This document shows positions 54,068 through 63,469 of a DNA stretch of 64,000 nt, piece by piece (position 1 is the stretch's first letter; each line of letters starts with the position of its first letter). Under the pieces are notes generated by a model. That model worked only from the letters and a program-made list of their open reading frames with translations. It did not search any database and was not told where the DNA came from. The position numbers and the translations under genes are program-made. The stretch comes from Leadbetterella byssophila DSM 17132 (GTDB lineage: Bacteria > Bacteroidota > Bacteroidia > Cytophagales > Spirosomataceae), in assembly GCF_000166395.1 (NCBI RefSeq), contig NC_014655.1, forward strand, positions 1,240,001 through 1,304,000, in the 5' to 3' direction.

Positions 54068-56188
54068 CTAAGCTTCTTTTAAGCTTAAACTGATCCTCTT
54101 TCTAGGAACATCAACTTCTAAAACCTTTGCCTTCACTTTTTGATGCACTTTAACCACTTCATTTGGATCCTTTACAAATCTATTAGCCAAATGCGATACA
54201 TGTACCAGTCCATCCTGATGTACACCCACATCCACAAAACATCCAAAGGCAGTGATATTCGTAACCACTCCCGGCAATATCATTCCTACTTTTAAGTCTT
54301 CTATGCTATTCACATCAGCAAATTCAAAGGCTTCAAAAGCTTCACGAGGATCTCTACCCGGCTTCTTAATCTCTTCCATAATGTCTCTCAAGGTAGGAAG
54401 ACCTATTTTATCTGTAACGTAGGCCTTTATATCCACCTTTTCCTGCAATTCCTTAGAAGCAATGAAAGATTTGAGATCCACTTTTAAATCTTTGGCCATT
54501 TTTTCTACCAAATGATAGGATTCCGGATGTACTGCGGTGTTATCCAAAGGGTGTTCCGCTCCGTGTATCCTTAAAAAACCGGCAGCTTGCTCAAACACTT
54601 TTTCTCCTAATCGTGGAACTTTCTTGAGGTCCTTTCTAGACTTGAACTTCCCATTAGAAGCCCTAAACTCTACTATATTATGAGCTATGGATGGTCCAAT
54701 TCCCGACACATAACTTAATAGATGTTTACTTGCGGTATTGAGCTCTACTCCCACTAAGTTTACACAAGATTCGACTACGGCGTCTAGGGATTCTTTTAGC
54801 TCCTTTTGGTTAACGTCATGCTGGTATTGTCCCACGCCTATGGATTTTGGATCTATTTTTACTAATTCAGCCAATGGATCCATTAAGCGTCTTCCAATAG
54901 AAACTGCACCTCTAACCGTTAAATCCTTTTCTGGAAACTCCTCTCTAGCCACTTCTGAGGCAGAGTAAATAGAGGCCCCTTGCTCAGAAACCATAATAAC
55001 CTTCTGGGGAAGCTGTTTTCTTTTTAAAAGATCTTTGACAAACTGCTCAGTTTCCCTCCCCGCAGTACCATTACCTATGGCTATTACTTCTGTCTTATGC
55101 TTTTCCCACAGATGAAGAAGTTTAGCTTCAGCTTCTTGCGCTTTAAATGTAGGATATATCACATCATCCGCCATGAGATTCCCCTGTGCATCTAAAATAA
55201 CCACTTTACAGCCTGTTCGGAAGCCAGGATCTATACCCATCGTACGCTTTTGCCCCATAGGAGCAGCTAATAGCAATTGCCTAAGGTTAGTAGTAAATAT
55301 CTCAATGGCAGCCTTATCTGCTTTTTCTTTGAGCGCATTATCAAATTCCTTTTCTAAACTAGGCATCATCAACCTTTTAAGGGCATCTGTAAGTGCTAAA
55401 TTTACCTGTTCTTTTGCCTCAGGAAGGCCTTTAAGAAGGAGTCTTTGCAATTGGTTTTCAGCATCTTCTTTTTCAATCTCTAAACCTACTTTTAATATGC
55501 CTTCTTCCTCTCCCCTCTTTATGGCAAGATATCTGTGAGATGGAATCCTTTTGGCTTCCTCTTCGTAATCAAAATAGTCTTTGAATTTCAAGCCCTCCTC
55601 TTCTTTCCCTTTCTTTACTTTAGAAACCACATATGCCGTCCTCTCGTAGATGCTTCTAACTCTTTTCCTGCACTCCAAATCATCTGCAATCCATTCCGCT
55701 ATGATATCTCTAGCTCCTGCAAGCGCTTCATCCACTGACTTCACCTTGTCATTCAGGTATCTTCCTGCTATAGATTCTAGATTTCTTTCCCTCTGATCAA
55801 AAATTAATTTTGCCAATGGTTCCAGTCCGGCCTCCATGGCTACTGAAGCCCTTGTTTTCTTCTTAGGTTTATACGGAAGGTAAATCTCCTCTAAATCAGC
55901 AAGCAAAAGGGTTTTCTCTAGTTTGTTTCGAAGTTCAGAAGTTAGTTTTCCCTGGGCTTCAATAGATTCAAGGATGGCTGTTCTTCTTTTGTCAGCTTCC
56001 TTCATTTTATCGTTCCACTTCTTGATTTCCAGGATATGGACCTCGTCCAAACTACCTGTAGCTTCTTTTCTATACCGGGCTATAAATGGCACTGTCCCTC
56101 CGGCCTCAAGTAGCTCCACGGTTTTACTTATCTGCTGAATGCTAACATTTAATAATTCAGAAATATATTGTAACTGTGCTGTAGTCAT
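54068..56188 (-). CDS. tex: Transcriptional accessory protein Tex
   Basis: Tex is a conserved RNA-binding protein linked to transcription elongation. Domain order is an N-terminal helical Tex region (1-200), a YqgF-like RNase H fold around GIDPGFRTGCKVVILDAQG (about 320-420), a double helix-hairpin-helix (LLSYVSGIGPSIAHNIVEFR), and a C-terminal S1 domain (about 630-706; GVVTNITAFGCFVDVGVHQD). Length 706 is normal. It is the first gene of a three-gene operon on this strand. Confidence 0.95.
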   Translation of the reverse strand: MTTAQLQYISELLNVSIQQISKTVELLEAGGTVPFIARYRKEATGSLDEVHILEIKKWNDKMKEADKRRTAILESIEAQGKLTSELRNKLEKTLLLADLEEIYLPYKPKKKTRASVAMEAGLEPLAKLIFDQRERNLESIAGRYLNDKVKSVDEALAGARDIIAEWIADDLECRKRVRSIYERTAYVVSKVKKGKEEEGLKFKDYFDYEEEAKRIPSHRYLAIKRGEEEGILKVGLEIEKEDAENQLQRLLLKGLPEAKEQVNLALTDALKRLMMPSLEKEFDNALKEKADKAAIEIFTTNLRQLLLAAPMGQKRTMGIDPGFRTGCKVVILDAQGNLMADDVIYPTFKAQEAEAKLLHLWEKHKTEVIAIGNGTAGRETEQFVKDLLKRKQLPQKVIMVSEQGASIYSASEVAREEFPEKDLTVRGAVSIGRRLMDPLAELVKIDPKSIGVGQYQHDVNQKELKESLDAVVESCVNLVGVELNTASKHLLSYVSGIGPSIAHNIVEFRASNGKFKSRKDLKKVPRLGEKVFEQAAGFLRIHGAEHPLDNTAVHPESYHLVEKMAKDLKVDLKSFIASKELQEKVDIKAYVTDKIGLPTLRDIMEEIKKPGRDPREAFEAFEFADVNSIEDLKVGMILPGVVTNITAFGCFVDVGVHQDGLVHVSHLANRFVKDPNEVVKVHQKVKAKVLEVDVPRKRISLSLKEA

Positions 56189-56242
56189 TCCAACCTTTTT
56201 CTATTAATTCAAGTCTATAATTTCAGAAACACAAATGTAACT

Positions 56243-56716
56243 ATGAAAAATCTATTCTATGCCTTAATCTTTTTTGCATTTTCGTGTCAATCAGACTCTG
56301 TTTTAGCTCCATTGATTAATGACATTGCGGAAGTTAAGTCAGGGCAATCTTTTGGGATGTGCGTAGGCAAATGCCATAATGAACTGGTAATCTCAGGAGA
56401 AAAAGTCACACTTATCCAGAAAGGAGTTTCAGAGAGAGGGGGCGACCTACAAACTTCGAGTGCAGACGCAAGTGAAAGATTAGATGCCATAAAAAAGATT
56501 TTCAAGAAATTCAAGAAATCAGATTTTCTAAAATTAAATGAAGTCTACGGGTGTCCGGACTGCGCAGACGGAGGTGCAGAATGGTTAAGCCTTAAGTTTA
56601 AGGACGGAAAAGTGAAGAAGGTAAGCTTTGAATATGGTAGCACTTTACCGGGATTTGAAGAAATCATTTCTGCCCTACGCACTGAGCGCTTATCTTTGAT
56701 AGAAAAAAACAGGTAA
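56243..56716 (+). CDS. Lipoprotein with two cysteine pairs
   Basis: This 157-residue lipoprotein has a signal ending in FAFSC (Cys15). The mature part contains GMCVGKC (C40 and C44) and YGCPDC (C104 and C107), which could form two disulfides or bind a metal. The N-terminal strand SFGMCVGKCHNELVISGEKV resembles small uncharacterised Bacteroidota lipoprotein domains of the DUF6438 type, but this match is from memory. It is adjacent to the HI0933-like flavoprotein gene, whose ATG follows its stop directly. Confidence 0.7.
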   Translation: MKNLFYALIFFAFSCQSDSVLAPLINDIAEVKSGQSFGMCVGKCHNELVISGEKVTLIQKGVSERGGDLQTSSADASERLDAIKKIFKKFKKSDFLKLNEVYGCPDCADGGAEWLSLKFKDGKVKKVSFEYGSTLPGFEEIISALRTERLSLIEKNR

Positions 56717-57925
56717 ATGGATATATATGACTTTTTAGTCATAGGGGGTGGTGCTTCAGGCTACTTTGCAGCCATCAATACTAAAGAAAAAGCGCCCCAT
56801 TTGAAGATAGGAATCATAGAGAAGCAGGGCAAGGTTCTCCAGAAGGTAAAGGTTTCAGGTGGGGGAAGATGTAATGTGACCAATGGAGAAACGGACCCCA
56901 AAATTCTCTCTAAAAATTATCCCAGAGGGGCGGATTTTTTGGAAACTGCGTTCCAGACCTTTGGATCTAAGGACACCTATTCCTGGTTTGAAAAAAGAGG
57001 TGTCAAACTAAAAACAGAGAAAGATGGAAGAGTATTTCCCGTTTCTGATTCTTCACAAAGTATAATTGATTGCTTTCTACGTCTTGCAAAAGGCGTAGAT
57101 TTGTTTTTAAAGACTAGGGTGGAAAATCTTGAGAGAGACGGCGAACTCTGGATCATTCATTGTTCTGATGATAGCATCTTTAAAGCTAAGCGACTGCTCA
57201 TTGCCACAGGCAGTGACAGTAGGATATGGTCTGCCCTACACCACTTAAATTTCAAAATAGAACCAGAAGTACCATCACTGTTTACATTTCAAATTCCCGA
57301 GCCTGAATTGCACGAACTTCAGGGTATCAGTTTTCCCAATGCCACAGTAAGGGCAGGCAAAATCCTACAAAATGGACCTCTATTAATAACACATTGGGGG
57401 CTCTCAGGACCTGCTATTTTAAAACTATCCGCTTGGGGGGCATACGCTCTAAAAGAAAAAGATTATCAGTTTGATTTAGAGGTAAATTGGCTCTCTGAGA
57501 AGGATATTAGGAAGGTGGAAGCTGATTTAAAAGCAAAATTTGCTGAAAATCCGAAAAAAAATGTGCGAATGTTGCCTTATGGCACTTTAACCCAAAGATT
57601 TTGGAACTATATTTGTGTAAGGTCAGGTATAGGAGAATTTCAAAAAGGGGCAGAAGCAGGCAAGAAGCAAATTGCCAAGCTATTAGAAAACCTGACAGCG
57701 GCAAAGTACAAAGTAAGCGGGAAGAGTACCTTTAAAGAGGAATTCGTAACTGCTGGAGGGGTTAGTTTGGATGAGATTCATGTAGAAACTTTTGCTTCCA
57801 AGCAGTACCCAAATTTGTATTTTGGTGGTGAAGTCTTAAACATTGATGCTATCACCGGCGGATTTAATTTCCAGGCAGCATGGACGGCAGGTTGGATTAT
57901 TTCTAGTGATGTTTCAAAGAAATAA
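56717..57925 (+). CDS. HI0933-like FAD-dependent oxidoreductase
   Basis: This 402-residue flavoprotein of the HI0933/YhiN family has the N-terminal FAD dinucleotide motif VIGGGASGYFAA (8-19). The conserved KVSGGGRCNVTNGE, the middle helical insertion (WFEKRGVKLKTEKDGRVFP) and the C-terminal GGEVLNIDAITGGFNFQAAW are all family hallmarks. The reaction is not known. It starts immediately after the upstream lipoprotein gene and is followed by a recombinase gene with its own promoter. Confidence 0.93.
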   Translation: MDIYDFLVIGGGASGYFAAINTKEKAPHLKIGIIEKQGKVLQKVKVSGGGRCNVTNGETDPKILSKNYPRGADFLETAFQTFGSKDTYSWFEKRGVKLKTEKDGRVFPVSDSSQSIIDCFLRLAKGVDLFLKTRVENLERDGELWIIHCSDDSIFKAKRLLIATGSDSRIWSALHHLNFKIEPEVPSLFTFQIPEPELHELQGISFPNATVRAGKILQNGPLLITHWGLSGPAILKLSAWGAYALKEKDYQFDLEVNWLSEKDIRKVEADLKAKFAENPKKNVRMLPYGTLTQRFWNYICVRSGIGEFQKGAEAGKKQIAKLLENLTAAKYKVSGKSTFKEEFVTAGGVSLDEIHVETFASKQYPNLYFGGEVLNIDAITGGFNFQAAWTAGWIISSDVSKK

Positions 57926-57960
57926 CCACTAAAATATGCTACATTATCAATGGAAACTTC

Positions 57961-57968
57961 TAATTTTG
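57961..57968 (+). promoter_or_regulatory. -7 element of the tyrosine recombinase gene
   Basis: TAATTTTG matches TAnnTTTG and lies 26 bases before the GTG start at 57995. There is no nearby ATG. Confidence 0.5.
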
Positions 57969-57994
57969 AATACTTACTTATAACCATTTAGACT

Positions 57995-58822
57995 GTGACC
58001 CATTTAATAGAAAGATTTACCGAACTTTTAAAAAAAGGTAAATACAATTCTGCGACCATAGCTGCGTATAGAAATGCTATTTTCGTTTTCTACAATAATT
58101 TCCGGGATTATCCTCAAAATAAATTCACTGATGAATTGATTTCGGAATACATCCTTAACCTTAGCAAGAAAACTAACCCTCAGGTAGCTGCGCAGACCGG
58201 AAAAGCCATTATCCTATTCTTTGACAAGATCTATAACCGCAAGCTAAACATCAAAGCCACCGGTAAGATCAAAGAAGAGCAGACCATTGAGATCCTGAGC
58301 AAATCTGAGCTGCAAACCTTGTTCAGCAGCATTAAAAACCTGAAACATAAATTGCTCCTGATCATGATCTATAATAATGGTCTCAAAGTCAATGAAGCCA
58401 TTAACTTGAAGGTAGGTGACATAGACACAGAAAATAATACCATAAAGATTGATGCAGACCAGCCAAAGAAAAGTCGCCTACTGCGCCTTAGCCCCGCTTT
58501 AAACGGACTGATAGAAGAATACAAACAAAAATATAAGCCCTCCGATGTGTTCTTCCCCGGTTCTGGTGGTATAGGACATTATTCAGCCAGGAATATACAG
58601 TTGGTTTTTCAAAAAGCTTTGAAGGAGGCAAAAATAGAAAAAGCGGCCAAACTGACCACTTTAAGACATAGTTTTGCTGTGCATTCTCTGGAAAATGGTA
58701 TCTCCATCAATCATTTGCAAAAGATCTTAGGACATAGTAATATTCAAACTACTTCCTTTTATGCCACATTTGCAAAGATTGAGTTACAAAACATCAGGTC
58801 TCCTTACGAAGATTTGATATAG
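57995..58822 (+). CDS. Tyrosine recombinase-like protein with changed catalytic residues
   Basis: This 275-residue XerC/D-like protein has a SAM-like N-terminal DNA-binding part (1-90) and a recombinase catalytic domain (100-270). The first catalytic Arg of the family appears as Lys131 (GLKVNEAI in place of GLRxxE). The His of the H-x-x-R motif appears as Thr221 (TTLRHSFAVH, Arg224 kept). The LGHS His247 and nucleophile Tyr256 (SFYATF) remain, and a Lys is available at 158-159. It may be slow, inactive or work on a special site. Its 3' end overlaps the convergent pirin gene by 29 bases. No mobile element or att repeat was seen around it. Confidence 0.82.
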   Translation: MTHLIERFTELLKKGKYNSATIAAYRNAIFVFYNNFRDYPQNKFTDELISEYILNLSKKTNPQVAAQTGKAIILFFDKIYNRKLNIKATGKIKEEQTIEILSKSELQTLFSSIKNLKHKLLLIMIYNNGLKVNEAINLKVGDIDTENNTIKIDADQPKKSRLLRLSPALNGLIEEYKQKYKPSDVFFPGSGGIGHYSARNIQLVFQKALKEAKIEKAAKLTTLRHSFAVHSLENGISINHLQKILGHSNIQTTSFYATFAKIELQNIRSPYEDLI

Positions 58823-59684
58823 GAAGTGGCACTCTCTCTGTTTCACCGGGAACGGGAGGGAATTCATTCTTTTGCCACTTTTCCTTTGCCCTTTCTATCT
58901 TTTCTTTAGAAGAACTAAGAAAATTCCAGAAATAAAATCGTTCTTCCGGAAAAGGCTCTCCCCCGAAAATGTAAACTGTACTACCTGCTTTCATTTGGAA
59001 AGTGCATAAGGTTGCATCGTTTGCCACTAATATATGCTTTGGGTGGTATACATATTCCCCGGAGCGAACTTCACCTTCTAATATATAAAGCGCACTCTCT
59101 CCAAATAGTTGAGAGCCTATTTCTATATCTGCATCCCTCTCTGCTTTGACTTCTATGAGATACAAAGGACTGTATACAGGAACTCCGGATCTCTTACCCA
59201 TGACTTCACCAGCCACTAACCTATATTTTACCCCCTGCTCTTCCCAAGCAGGTAGTTCATCTGCATCAATATGATGGAAGGAAGGCTCCATGTCCTCTAA
59301 ATCTTTAGGCAAAGCCACCCAAATCTGTAAGCCGTGCAGTACTTTCTCAGAAGACCTCAAGTACGGAGGAGTTCGTTCAGAATGCACTACTCCCCTACCT
59401 GCAGTCATCCAGTTAACAGCTCCCGGTTTGATTTCCACTTCTGTCCCTAAACTATCTTTGTGTAGAACAACACCTTCAAAAAGATAAGTCAAAGTGGATA
59501 AGCCAATATGAGGATGGGGAGGAACATCCAGATTTTGATAATCCTTCAGATACGCAGGACCCATATGATCTATGAATGCAAAGGGCCCTACCATCCTTTT
59601 TTGACGAAAGGGCAGCAGACGACCAACTTTGAAGTTGCCTATATCTGCTGCCCTCTCTTCTATTATTAAACTTACATTAGACAT
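58794..59684 (-). CDS. Pirin-family bicupin protein
   Basis: This 296-residue protein has two cupin domains. The metal-binding first cupin shows PPHPHIGLSTLTYLFEGVV with the His pair, then GVVHSERTPP. Pirins bind Fe or act as quercetin 2,3-dioxygenases, but cellular roles differ. It starts on the minus strand 42 bases before the CoA-transferase stop, so it could be in the same unit. The C-terminus (LPISNLRKE) overlaps the recombinase gene on the other strand. Confidence 0.9.
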   Translation of the reverse strand: MSNVSLIIEERAADIGNFKVGRLLPFRQKRMVGPFAFIDHMGPAYLKDYQNLDVPPHPHIGLSTLTYLFEGVVLHKDSLGTEVEIKPGAVNWMTAGRGVVHSERTPPYLRSSEKVLHGLQIWVALPKDLEDMEPSFHHIDADELPAWEEQGVKYRLVAGEVMGKRSGVPVYSPLYLIEVKAERDADIEIGSQLFGESALYILEGEVRSGEYVYHPKHILVANDATLCTFQMKAGSTVYIFGGEPFPEERFYFWNFLSSSKEKIERAKEKWQKNEFPPVPGETERVPLPISNLRKET

Positions 59685-59726
59685 ACCATGTGCGAAATTT
59701 TAGACAATTTGCAAAGAAAGATGCAA

Positions 59727-61220
59727 TTAGTCTAACTTCATGGTGCCTTTATTTTTCAGATTCAGATGCCAACTGAACGCCTCTTCCAATAAGTGCGGAG
59801 TATGACCACCTCTTTCCTTGGCACGATCAAAATAGGATTGTAATTGTTCCCGATAGTCAGGATGAACACAATTATTAATAATCACCTGTGCCCTTTCTCG
59901 TGGAGCCAAACCGCGTAAATCAGCCAATCCTATGTCTGTAACAATGATATCTACATCATGCTCCGTGTGATCCACATGAGACACCATAGGTAGAATATGA
60001 GATATGCTGTTATTCTTAGATGCCGCTTGAGTAACAAAGATGCTTAAATAAGCATTTCTGGCAAAGTCACCTGAACCTCCTATGCCGTTCATTATATTAG
60101 TACCGCTAATATGAGTAGAGTTCACATTGCCGTAAATATCCACTTCAATAGCCGTATTGATAGCGATAATACCCAACCTACGTATCAGTCCTGGTGTATT
60201 CGATATATTCTGAGGTCGAAGTACAATCTTATCTCTGTAGTTCTGCAGATTCTCAAATATACGTTTATAACATGCTTCAGAAACCGTGATGGATGAAGCA
60301 GACGCCACGGACAGCTTACCCGCATCAATCAGATCAAAAGTACTGTCTTGCAATACCTCAGAAAACATGGTAAGATCATAGAAATTACTATGCTTGAAGC
60401 CAGAAAGAACGGCATTTGCCACTTTTCCGATTCCCGCCTGTATAGGTAGCAATCTTTCTGTCAAGTGACCTAGTTTTACTTCATTTTCAAAGAAGTTTAG
60501 GATGTGCTTCGCAATGGCAGTAGTCTTCTCGTCCGGTTCGGCTATATCCGCAGGACTATCTTTTATGTCTGTAAAAACTATAGCTACAATCTTGGAAGGA
60601 TCACAAGGTATGGTTCTTCTCCCTATCTTATTTTCTGCAGCAACTATTGGAATAACATTTCTATGGGGATAATCTTCTGCCTGATATATATCATGAATAC
60701 CAAAAATACTAGTAGGTACGGCTGTATTGATTTCGATAATCAATTTCTTCGCCAGTGCGGCAAAAGTCGCAGAATTTCCTACTGAGGTGGTAGGTATCAA
60801 ACTTCCGTCTCTTTCAATCCCGGCAGCTTCAATGACGGCAATATCTACGGATGGTAGGTTTTTGTTGTGCAGTAATTCGGCCGCCTCACTAAGGTGCTGA
60901 TCAATGAACAAAACCTCTCCCTCATTGATTTTTTGGCGAAGAACCCTGTCTACTTGGAAAGGCATTCTTTTCTTGAGCGCTCCGGCACTGGCTAACTTCC
61001 CATCTGTATCATGACCTAAAGAAGCACCGGTCATCAAGGTTATTTTTATACTTTCCTCTTTTGCACGGTCTGCAAGTGCAGGTAAAACGGCTTTACTATC
61101 TCCGGCTTTTGTAAAACCACTGGCTCCCACCACCATTTGGTCCTGAATAAAAGCTGCTGCTGATTTGGCATCCATCACTTTAGACAGCAGTTCAGGAACT
61201 TTAATTCTATCTGTCGGCAT
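59727..61220 (-). CDS. Acetyl-CoA hydrolase/succinyl-CoA:acetate CoA transferase family protein
   Basis: This 497-residue class I CoA transferase-type enzyme has two Rossmann-like halves. The first half contains GASGFTKAGDSKAVLPAL, and the second has the conserved glycine-rich stretch NGIGGSGDFARNAYLSIFV near residue 385, typical of the family. A Glu for the acyl-enzyme is likely in the middle of the chain. Members move CoA between acetate, succinate and others. It lies downstream of the feoAB genes with a 96-base gap that contains a promoter and palindrome. Confidence 0.88.
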   Translation of the reverse strand: MPTDRIKVPELLSKVMDAKSAAAFIQDQMVVGASGFTKAGDSKAVLPALADRAKEESIKITLMTGASLGHDTDGKLASAGALKKRMPFQVDRVLRQKINEGEVLFIDQHLSEAAELLHNKNLPSVDIAVIEAAGIERDGSLIPTTSVGNSATFAALAKKLIIEINTAVPTSIFGIHDIYQAEDYPHRNVIPIVAAENKIGRRTIPCDPSKIVAIVFTDIKDSPADIAEPDEKTTAIAKHILNFFENEVKLGHLTERLLPIQAGIGKVANAVLSGFKHSNFYDLTMFSEVLQDSTFDLIDAGKLSVASASSITVSEACYKRIFENLQNYRDKIVLRPQNISNTPGLIRRLGIIAINTAIEVDIYGNVNSTHISGTNIMNGIGGSGDFARNAYLSIFVTQAASKNNSISHILPMVSHVDHTEHDVDIIVTDIGLADLRGLAPRERAQVIINNCVHPDYREQLQSYFDRAKERGGHTPHLLEEAFSWHLNLKNKGTMKLD

Positions 61221-61295
61221 ATCCTAACTTTTGAAAGCTGCAAATTTCGAGGGCTTTACCCTACGTATAGTATGACTTTCCTCAAACCAAAAGTC

Positions 61296-61307
61296 TGAGA
61301 ATTCTCA
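61296..61307. repeat. Perfect palindrome at the CoA-transferase start site
   Basis: TGAGAATTCTCA is a perfect 12-base palindrome. It lies directly downstream of the -7 element at 61308-61315 on the minus strand, so it would cover the transcription start. A second dyad, GACTTT/AAAGTC (61274-61279 and 61290-61295), adjoins it. Confidence 0.45.
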
Positions 61308-61315
61308 CAAATGTA
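61308..61315 (-). promoter_or_regulatory. -7 element of the CoA-transferase gene
   Basis: On the minus strand this reads TACATTTG, an exact TAnnTTTG match. A TTG lies 14 bases upstream at 61330-61332, a little close. The leader would be about 80 bases. Confidence 0.5.
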
Positions 61316-61316
61316 A

Positions 61317-61427
61317 TCAACTGCAGCCGCAATCCGACCCACACCCCGGATTTTTCGGTCCCCACCATTTCCATGCTAAGAACCCAAGTGCCAATAGTAC
61401 AGCACCATATGCCAAAAAATCCTGCAT
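61317..61427 (-). CDS. FeoB-associated Cys-rich membrane peptide
   Basis: This 36-residue peptide has one hydrophobic span (MQDFLAYGAVLLALGFLAWK) and a Cys-rich tail with C29, C33 and C35 (NPGCGSDCGCS). Its ATG overlaps the feoB stop (TAATG), so it is translated after FeoB. Such FeoB-associated Cys-rich peptides are common in Bacteroidota and are thought to assist ferrous iron import. A longer frame to 61553 exists but runs inside feoB. Confidence 0.8.
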   Translation of the reverse strand: MQDFLAYGAVLLALGFLAWKWWGPKNPGCGSDCGCS

Positions 61428-63469
61428 TATTTTAATAATTGAAATGCCGCAAAGGCAGATAAATACGCTAATCCACTCATGAAAACAATCTGGATCAAGG
61501 TCCATTTCCATGAATTCGTTTCCCTTCGCATAACGCCAAGAGTAGACATACATTGCATAGCAAATGCATAGAATAACAACAAGGAAACACCCGTAGCCAA
61601 GTCAAACATAGCACTTCCATCAGGTCTTTTCTCTTGCCTCATTCTTTCTACAATCCTGGTTTCCTCTTCCCCCTGACTGCCAATATTATACAAAGTAGCC
61701 AGGTTACCAACAAACACTTCTCTGGCCGCAAATGAGGTCAGAACCGCAATACTTACTTTCCAATCATAACCCAATGGTCTAAAAACAGGCTCCACTGCAC
61801 TACCAATCATTCCAATATAGGAATTTCTTAGCTTGAAACCTTGTACTTCATCCTCCCATTCTTCCGGAGTCTTATTCTCTTGAGTGATCAATTCTTCCGC
61901 CTGCCCAAAGGTAGAAGCCGGACCATGAGCACCCAGAAACCATAACAATACCGATAAAGCTAATATGATCTTACCGGCCCCCTCTACAAATGCCTTCGTT
62001 TTCTCTATCATGGTATTCACCACATTAAATACCTGAGGTCTACGATAAGTTGGCATCTCGATGATCAGATAACTTTTTACTTCAGACCTCACCATCTTCT
62101 TTAATAACCATGCTCCTCCTAAGGCAGCTAAAAAGCCAAGAAAATACATCAAGGTCATCACTAAGCCCTGAAGCCCCATAAAGCCTCCTATGGTGGTATT
62201 TGGAATGACTAATGAGATGATGATCACGTAGATGGGAATCCTGGCAGAACAAGTTGCGAACGGAGTCACTAACATGGTAATCAGTCTTTCCTTTGGATTT
62301 TCAATGTTCCTGGCAGACATAATAGCCGGAATGGCACAAGCCACCCCTGAAATTAGAGGTACTACAGATTTACCACTTAACCCGAACGGGCGCATCAGCT
62401 TATCCATCAGGAATACTACTCTACTCATATATCCGCTCTCTTCTAATAGAGCTATAAACATGAAAAGAATAGCAATCTGCGGAATAAATATCACCACCCC
62501 ACCTATCCCGGGTACAATTCCTTCCGCTAAAAGTTCGGTAAACTTCCCTTCGGGTAAAGTTGCACTTATCCAAGCACTTAACTGAGCAAACTTCTCATCA
62601 ATCCAATCCGTAGGAATAGATGACCATGAAAATATGGACTGGAAAACCACAAGCATAATGGCGAAGAAGATCACATATCCCCAAACAGGATGCATCAGAA
62701 TTCGATCAACCTTTGCTTGCCAACCCGTAGCTTTATTTATATCCTTCTGATAAGCTTCTTTTAAGACTCCTTGAATCAGTTGGTATCTTCTAACCGTTTC
62801 TTTTTGTTGTAAACGCTTAATATCACTTACACTCAGAGTATCTTCAATCTTATGAATGCTGTTAAACTGTGCATTCTGAGACCTGTTCAACCAAGCTTTG
62901 TATTCTTTACCTCTAAAATAGCTTTCATCAACATCTGTCAATTCAAAAACCGGCTTGGTATCTGCATACTCATAAGAAGCGATGGCAGATTTTAGATCAT
63001 TAAAACCCAAACCGCTTTTGCTAGATATCAGAACGGTGGAGCATTTGAAGTAGGAACTGAGTTTTGACAGATCTATAGAAATGCCTTTGGGAGCCATTTG
63101 ATCTGCCATATTAATGGCCAAAATGGTAGGAAATCCTAGATCTTTGATCTGCGTAAGTAATAATAGATTACGCTTTAGGTTCTCCACTTCAGCTACCACT
63201 ACCACCACATTTGGATAATAGCTATTTTTCTCATCAAAGAGCGTTTCTAATACTACTTCTTCGTCTTTAGAATTAGGCTGAATGGAATATAAACCGGGCA
63301 AATCAATGATAGTGGCTTTTAGCTGATCATTGATTTTGGCATGACCTGTTTTCCTATCTACAGTTATTCCCGGATAATTACCAACTTTCTGATTGAGACC
63401 TGTTAATGTATTAAAAACGGAGGTTTTACCCACATTTGGATTACCTACCAGAGCTACCTTAATTTCCAT
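61427..63469 (-). CDS. feoB: Ferrous iron transporter FeoB
   Basis: FeoB is the inner-membrane Fe(II) importer with a cytosolic G domain. The G1 motif GNPNVGKT is at 9-16, DLPG at 56-59 and NMAD at about 119-122. The C-terminal membrane part contains Gate motifs such as SGVACAIPAIMSARNIE and FVGNLATLYN. At 680 residues it is complete. It overlaps feoA by 11 bases upstream and the Cys-rich peptide downstream, so the order is feoA-feoB-Cys peptide. Confidence 0.97.
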   Translation of the reverse strand: MEIKVALVGNPNVGKTSVFNTLTGLNQKVGNYPGITVDRKTGHAKINDQLKATIIDLPGLYSIQPNSKDEEVVLETLFDEKNSYYPNVVVVVAEVENLKRNLLLLTQIKDLGFPTILAINMADQMAPKGISIDLSKLSSYFKCSTVLISSKSGLGFNDLKSAIASYEYADTKPVFELTDVDESYFRGKEYKAWLNRSQNAQFNSIHKIEDTLSVSDIKRLQQKETVRRYQLIQGVLKEAYQKDINKATGWQAKVDRILMHPVWGYVIFFAIMLVVFQSIFSWSSIPTDWIDEKFAQLSAWISATLPEGKFTELLAEGIVPGIGGVVIFIPQIAILFMFIALLEESGYMSRVVFLMDKLMRPFGLSGKSVVPLISGVACAIPAIMSARNIENPKERLITMLVTPFATCSARIPIYVIIISLVIPNTTIGGFMGLQGLVMTLMYFLGFLAALGGAWLLKKMVRSEVKSYLIIEMPTYRRPQVFNVVNTMIEKTKAFVEGAGKIILALSVLLWFLGAHGPASTFGQAEELITQENKTPEEWEDEVQGFKLRNSYIGMIGSAVEPVFRPLGYDWKVSIAVLTSFAAREVFVGNLATLYNIGSQGEEETRIVERMRQEKRPDGSAMFDLATGVSLLLFYAFAMQCMSTLGVMRRETNSWKWTLIQIVFMSGLAYLSAFAAFQLLK

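Follow-up and report, generated by a model that had tools for sequence, protein, structure and literature searches.

A gene in the window (the whole 64,000-nucleotide stretch analysed, positions 1,240,001-1,304,000 of a 4.06-Mb single-contig genome) encodes a degenerate tyrosine recombinase that, with a probability we put at about two in three, is a host-domesticated, catalytically crippled enzyme turned predicted sequence-specific DNA-binding protein, working in a manner similar to MrpR. Its near-housekeeping conservation despite the loss of residues used for cutting suggests that the protein may now only grip DNA, perhaps as a regulator. The ancestor of one clade of the family would have acquired a chromosomal recombinase of the XerA/integron-integrase type, whose enzymatic role has since given way to DNA binding. 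The core-binding (CB) and catalytic-type (CAT) domains would still clamp a specific site, with Arg II, His III and the Tyr being kept for phosphate contact and structure. Arg I and the hairpin Lys, joined in this genus by His II, would have drifted, cutting being no longer needed or unwanted. The features are listed in Table 1.

Table 1. Positions in the window of the recombinase gene, its domains, its catalytic positions and nearby features.
Feature	Position	Strand	Basis or remark
tex	54068..56188	-	Pfam Tex domains; conserved neighbourhood
157-aa gene	56243-56716		Pfam: no match
BaiN/HI0933-type flavoprotein gene	56717..57925	+	PF03486, 211.2 bits; conserved upstream neighbour
Possible -7 promoter box TAATTTTG (TAnnTTTG)	57961..57968	+	Same aligned column in 10/10 genus members
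Degenerate tyrosine recombinase gene	57995..58822	+	GTG start, 275 aa plus stop
N-terminal CB (SAM-like) DNA-binding domain, unusually conserved	57995..58264	+	Residues 1-90
C-terminal CAT domain	58289..58789	+	Residues 99-265; PF00589; Foldseek and VIA matches XerA, IntI4, XerH
Lys131, replacing catalytic Arg I	58385..58387	+	Ortholog alignment
Gln156, aligned with catalytic beta-hairpin Lys	58460..58462	+	Alignment-dependent
Thr221, replacing His II of H-x-x-R	58655..58657	+	Ortholog alignment
Arg224, Arg II, kept	58664..58666	+	27/27 orthologs
His247, His III (LGH), kept	58733..58735	+	27/27 orthologs
Tyr256, nucleophile position, kept	58760..58762	+	27/27 orthologs

Gene, domain make-up and predicted fold

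Full-length orthologs, with E <= 1.3e-82 and at least 50% identity, were found in 27 of the 200 sampled genomes of the family and in 7 of 36 genera. Their start codon is GTG in 23 cases and ATG in 4, and the residues after it, THLIERFTE, are invariant in all 27; the GTG start is therefore right. The protein belongs by descent to the tyrosine recombinase superfamily, as it matches the Phage_integrase profile (PF00589, residues 101-258, 95.1 bits against a cut-off of 27.1) and its predicted structure has the CB plus CAT fold. The CB region is formed by helices in the predicted model, and residues 4-85 match PF13495 with 23.4 bits, which is under the cut-off of 27 for that profile. XerA_Arch (NF040815) is the best NCBIfam model, with 154.3 bits and thus short of its cut-off of 220, and among proteins of solved structure its sequence is nearest to XerA-like and integron integrases. 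Many other integrases encoded in genomes of the family are about 30-37% identical to the protein. Assignment as XerC or XerD was considered and rejected, because the same genome carries separate XerC- and XerD-like genes and the protein falls short with TIGR02225 (100.6 against 329.6) and TIGR02224 (93.6 against 335.15).

An AlphaFold model built with the 27 orthologs has a pLDDT of 85.5 and a pTM of 0.63, with pLDDT under 50 at residues 251-253 and 255-258, around the Tyr. Its best fold matches are XerA, IntI4 and XerH (4a8e: Z 22.0, rmsd 7.6, 249 residues aligned). Active recombinases outrank recombinase-fold repressors in this comparison, in which YopR/MrpR reaches Z 11.5 and SroF 12.0-12.9, and the fold of the protein thus does not single out repressors.

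Distribution, gene neighbourhood and upstream DNA

The gene is present in all 10 genomes of the window's genus and in 10 of the 11 genomes of a second genus (g27), the eleventh of which (G127) has a C-terminal piece of the ortholog at a contig end. Among 390 genomes of the order, 11 gave matches of at least 449 bits, all of them in this family, and the next best match scored 231 bits. The closest named relative is a protein from a Leadbetterella metagenome genome, with 85% identity. The gene is single copy. A search of a collection of genome contigs returned one ortholog (L039) and two distant matches.

The order tex-baiN-gene-pdxA is conserved: pdxA, in convergent orientation, lies directly 3' of the gene in 23 of the 27 loci, baiN lies upstream in 25, and tex was seen in 24. 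In many loci another gene, presumably symporter-like, lies between baiN and the recombinase gene, and in this genome and that of its closest relative other genes occupy the place of pdxA. As originally predicted, no mobile-element gene adjoins the recombinase gene in the window, the neighbours being tex, the BaiN/HI0933-type flavoprotein gene, a pirin gene, an acetyl-CoA hydrolase/transferase gene and the 157-aa gene, for which the label DUF6438 was not borne out by Pfam; for the other genomes this absence is judged from the shared gene order, Pfam having been run on few neighbours. The last 29 bases of the gene (58794-58822) are shared with the convergent pirin gene, which stands where 23 of the 27 loci carry pdxA. 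No tRNA was found within the window, and PADLOC gave no match to a defence system. The tex and pdxA trees show genus groups broadly as in the recombinase tree, with some weak forks, although L088, which belongs to the genus, does not group with its congeners in the tex tree. Because the gene order is conserved and these trees broadly agree, descent of the gene has probably been vertical, with no obvious mobile element around it. In genera that lack the gene, seven of seven 16-kb stretches around baiN contain neither tex nor pdxA, baiN being located elsewhere, so that no empty site could be read.

The gene was also predicted to have its own promoter, which the upstream DNA supports weakly. A TAnnTTTG box, possibly a Bacteroidota -7 box, is kept across the genus, but such boxes abound in the window (85 found versus 65.5 expected) and no -33 partner of the box was seen. 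A conserved binding site near the gene was sought and rejected, the upstream 90 bases being conserved no better than the upstream DNA of neighbouring genes. Synonymous sites in the first ten codons show modest conservation, largely due to the GTG start, and the inverted repeats within 55500-61500 are imperfect; no invertible segment is claimed. Given its varying neighbours and the lack of a recognisable site at its own promoter, the protein would most likely act in trans, as a regulator or as a DNA-bending or DNA-bridging factor. In g27 loci (L090, L092, L094-L097, L099, L101, L103, and L107), a candidate element consisting of GTGAC, then TTT, and AGTC about 15 bases on lies approximately 80 bases before the start codon; its GTGAC part is exact in 8 of the 10 loci.

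Catalytic positions and selective constraint

The original observation of two changed catalytic residues is right and understated. Lys131, Thr221, Arg224, His247 and Tyr256 fall on Arg I, His II, Arg II, His III and the Tyr, respectively, with the alignment of relatives and the PDB alignments in agreement, and to these is added Gln156 at the position of the hairpin Lys, which had gone unmentioned and lies in a variable loop with K158 and K159 nearby. Across the 27 orthologs, Arg I is Lys in 20, Arg in 6 and Ser in 1, and His II is His in 17, Asn in 8 and Thr in 2. All Asn and Thr residues belong to the window's genus, in which both positions are altered in 10 of 10 genomes (Lys at Arg I; Asn or Thr at His II). 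In g27, all 10 full copies have Lys at Arg I. The remaining seven orthologs have Arg (six) or Ser (one) at Arg I and invariably His at His II. The hairpin-Lys position, in a hard-to-align loop, is Lys in 11 orthologs (the 10 of g27 and L021) and variable in the other 16. By alignment, L021 has all six catalytic residues, and the other orthologs lack one, two or three. None of 23 outgroup rows (XerC, XerD and the partial L008 set aside) has lost Arg I, His II, Arg II, His III or Tyr, and the Lys is missing in one. This row is L060 (G247), a distant stand-alone relative of 279 aa from another family, with Pro at the hairpin-Lys position and the other five residues intact.

Homologs with the standard Arg and His, which had been named as evidence against the original prediction, do occur outside the genus, where 6 of the 27 orthologs have both, but neither residue is found in any of the 10 genomes within it. 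Together with the outgroup, these orthologs indicate that the standard Arg and His are the ancestral state. On a quick tree (no bootstrap, 8 of 26 outgroup rows used, catalytic columns left in), Arg I changed at least 3 times, His II at least 2 times and the hairpin Lys at least 11 times, the last of which may reflect misalignment. The change of Arg I to Lys apparently arose separately in the two genera. Compared with an active enzyme, the g27 protein is altered only at Arg I, and it may retain some activity.

The protein could also still be a recombinase, slow or highly selective, with Lys131, or another basic residue such as Arg164, serving for Arg I and His II being dispensable, which we consider unlikely. 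The positive charge at Arg I is retained by the Lys, and Arg164 is found in 10 of 10 genus members, in 2 of the 6 Arg-I-retaining orthologs and in none of the 23 outgroup rows; the window's genus may thus have a shifted catalytic Arg, as in CTnDOT integrase, which is described as having an alternative Arg, in the same source that describes Tyr for the first His in IntDes (PMC8138268). On the other hand, three of the six positions differ together in this genus, and the alignment contains no Arg column specific to all 21 orthologs without Arg I. Moreover, the corresponding mutant of Tn1549 Int, R225K, is reported to be inactive while still forming the DNA complex, and the same source states that the analogous Cre mutation blocks recombination (PMC5871717); by comparison with these mutants, the window protein would have lost recombination. 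Tyr256, Arg224 and His247, invariant in 27 of 27 orthologs, would also be expected of a residually active enzyme, but this argument is weakened because MrpR keeps its Tyr and because 71 of the 275 columns are invariant here. Replacement of the Tyr of MrpR is reported to destabilise the protein (PMC10516654).

The distribution of constraint along the protein is also opposite to that of XerC and XerD. Mean identity among the 27 orthologs is 73.0% in CB (residues 11-90) versus 54.7% in CAT, with CB ahead in 348 of 351 pairs, and residues 1-45 reach 87.5%. The corresponding values are 57.4 and 73.9% for XerD (CB ahead in 6 of 325 pairs), 55.7 and 65.7% for XerC (15 of 325), and 46.4 and 59.0% for 21 outgroup rows (37 of 210; the 26 rows minus XerD, XerC and three incomplete or short rows), the domain borders having been placed separately for every set by where its Arg I and His II lie, and thus being comparable, not identical. 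In tyrosine recombinases at large, CB is described as much less conserved than CAT (PMC8138268). This inversion is the strongest single sign that selection keeps DNA recognition and not cutting, although the well-conserved N-terminus could also reflect a protein partner. The CAT domain is itself strongly constrained.

Loss of catalytic residues might alternatively mark a decaying relic without function, a reading that is scarcely credible, being contradicted by selection and by the persistence of the gene throughout the genus. None of the 27 full-length orthologs has an internal stop (one further copy is cut by a contig end), and the N-terminal 45 residues are the conserved stretch noted above. 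Of 16 pairs, 11 allowed dS to be estimated and gave dN/dS values of 0.023-0.052, whereas 5 did not; dS exceeded 1 in 8 of the 11, and the pair with the lowest dS (0.269) gave a dN/dS of 0.052. These values are approximately in the range of those of tex (0.024-0.060) and pdxA (0.018-0.048); baiN (0.057-0.158) and the small upstream gene (0.117-0.174) were also compared, with fewer pairs for each of the four.

In the comparison with XerC and XerD of the same genomes that had been proposed, the six residues R, K, H, R, H and Y are kept in 26 of 26 rows of each. All 27 ortholog-bearing genomes have XerC and 26 have XerD, the XerC set being used without one partial row (L169) and the XerD set without the one genome that gave no match. 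Their presence would allow the protein to serve, without activity of its own, as a subunit of a mixed complex in which it places or holds back an active tyrosine recombinase. The C-terminal tail, through which Xer-type proteins contact one another, is kept in the orthologs: P270 is the same in all 27, and most outgroup rows end in a similar SPxxxL tail. XerC and XerD, however, form a pair that is complete without a third subunit. This genome showed a single close paralog that is intact, L002 (G000:C1:3366428-3367252, outside the window), a 275-aa XerA-like recombinase with 32% identity to the window protein; no evident ortholog of it exists in the other 26 genomes, where its best long match is 42% identical (partial matches, up to 46%) and where in many cases its best match is the ortholog of the window protein. 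L002 is probably a recent arrival and was rejected as a dedicated active partner, and the partner-subunit explanation as a whole is quite improbable. Another tyrosine recombinase gene, at G000:C1:1086480-1087261 (L007 and L008, outside the window), is broken by several in-frame stops; it shares 33% identity with residues 4-211 of the window protein.

The original prediction offered two functions, a DNA-binding protein or a very selective chromosomal recombinase. The former is favoured, because the changes are genus-wide, the gene is under strong purifying selection in a conserved order, XerC and XerD are intact, and CB is better conserved than CAT. We give even odds to a more specific course of events for the DNA-binding protein, in which catalysis would have disappeared stepwise, through independent losses of Arg I in two genera and a loss of His II in one, with CB held above the constraint seen in XerC and XerD, yielding a core regulator or DNA-architecture protein outside mobile elements that has a relative with all six residues in a related genus.

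Comparison with known recombinase-derived proteins

Recombinases turned DNA-binding proteins are known from eukaryotes. Ndc10 of budding yeast has a recombinase-like fold and binds DNA without catalysis, but differs from the window protein in being a eukaryotic centromere protein. Other cases are described from phages (PMC10516654) and transposons (PMC10293859). No report of a vertically inherited bacterial case was found in the literature searched, most subscription journals being outside its coverage. If the proposed reading holds, the gene would represent a vertically inherited recombinase-turned-DNA-binder of bacterial chromosomes whose intermediate stages still exist in related genera, and the order of the losses and the gain of the new role would become directly testable. 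It would also be a warning to annotators that a conserved 'integrase' may be a regulator.

By analogy with MrpR, Tn1549 Int and TnsF, the window protein should bind DNA and not recombine it. MrpR (YopR), the master repressor of the Bacillus subtilis prophage SPbeta, shares with it the CB plus CAT fold, the replacement of Arg I and His II (Asn at the latter in MrpR) and the retained Tyr, and is reported to be a repressor that showed no recombination in the assay used (PMC10516654). The structure of YopR (8bpz) aligns to the model with Z 11.5 and rmsd 16.1 over 227 residues. MrpR differs in being phage-encoded, the window protein being chromosomal, in keeping the Lys, and in having Val at His III and V257/R258 at the Arg II position (PMC10516654 Table 3). 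SroF, the phi3T repressor (9rd5, 9rgl), also has the recombinase fold (9rd5: Z 12.0, rmsd 8.5, 235 residues aligned) but is a phage protein with no sequence match to the window protein. A phmmer search at E up to 0.001 gave 13 matches, none of them a YopR/MrpR or SroF chain, and by sequence the protein does not belong to the MrpR/SroF family.

TnsF of Tn6022 is described as a recombinase-derived protein that is no longer catalytic and is used to recognise targets, and the Tsy element has an active relative (PMC10293859). It differs in its length of 498 aa, its zinc fingers, two CB domains and partial CAT, and its location beside TniQ in a transposon; identity with TnsF was thus rejected for the window protein, which has 275 aa, one CB and a full CAT and is flanked by tex, baiN and pirin genes. 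The closest systems in both sequence and fold are the XerA-type and integron-type recombinases (NF040815; 4a8e, 5hxy, 2a3v), from which the window protein is set apart by a score under the NF040815 cut-off and by changes, by alignment, at three catalytic positions.
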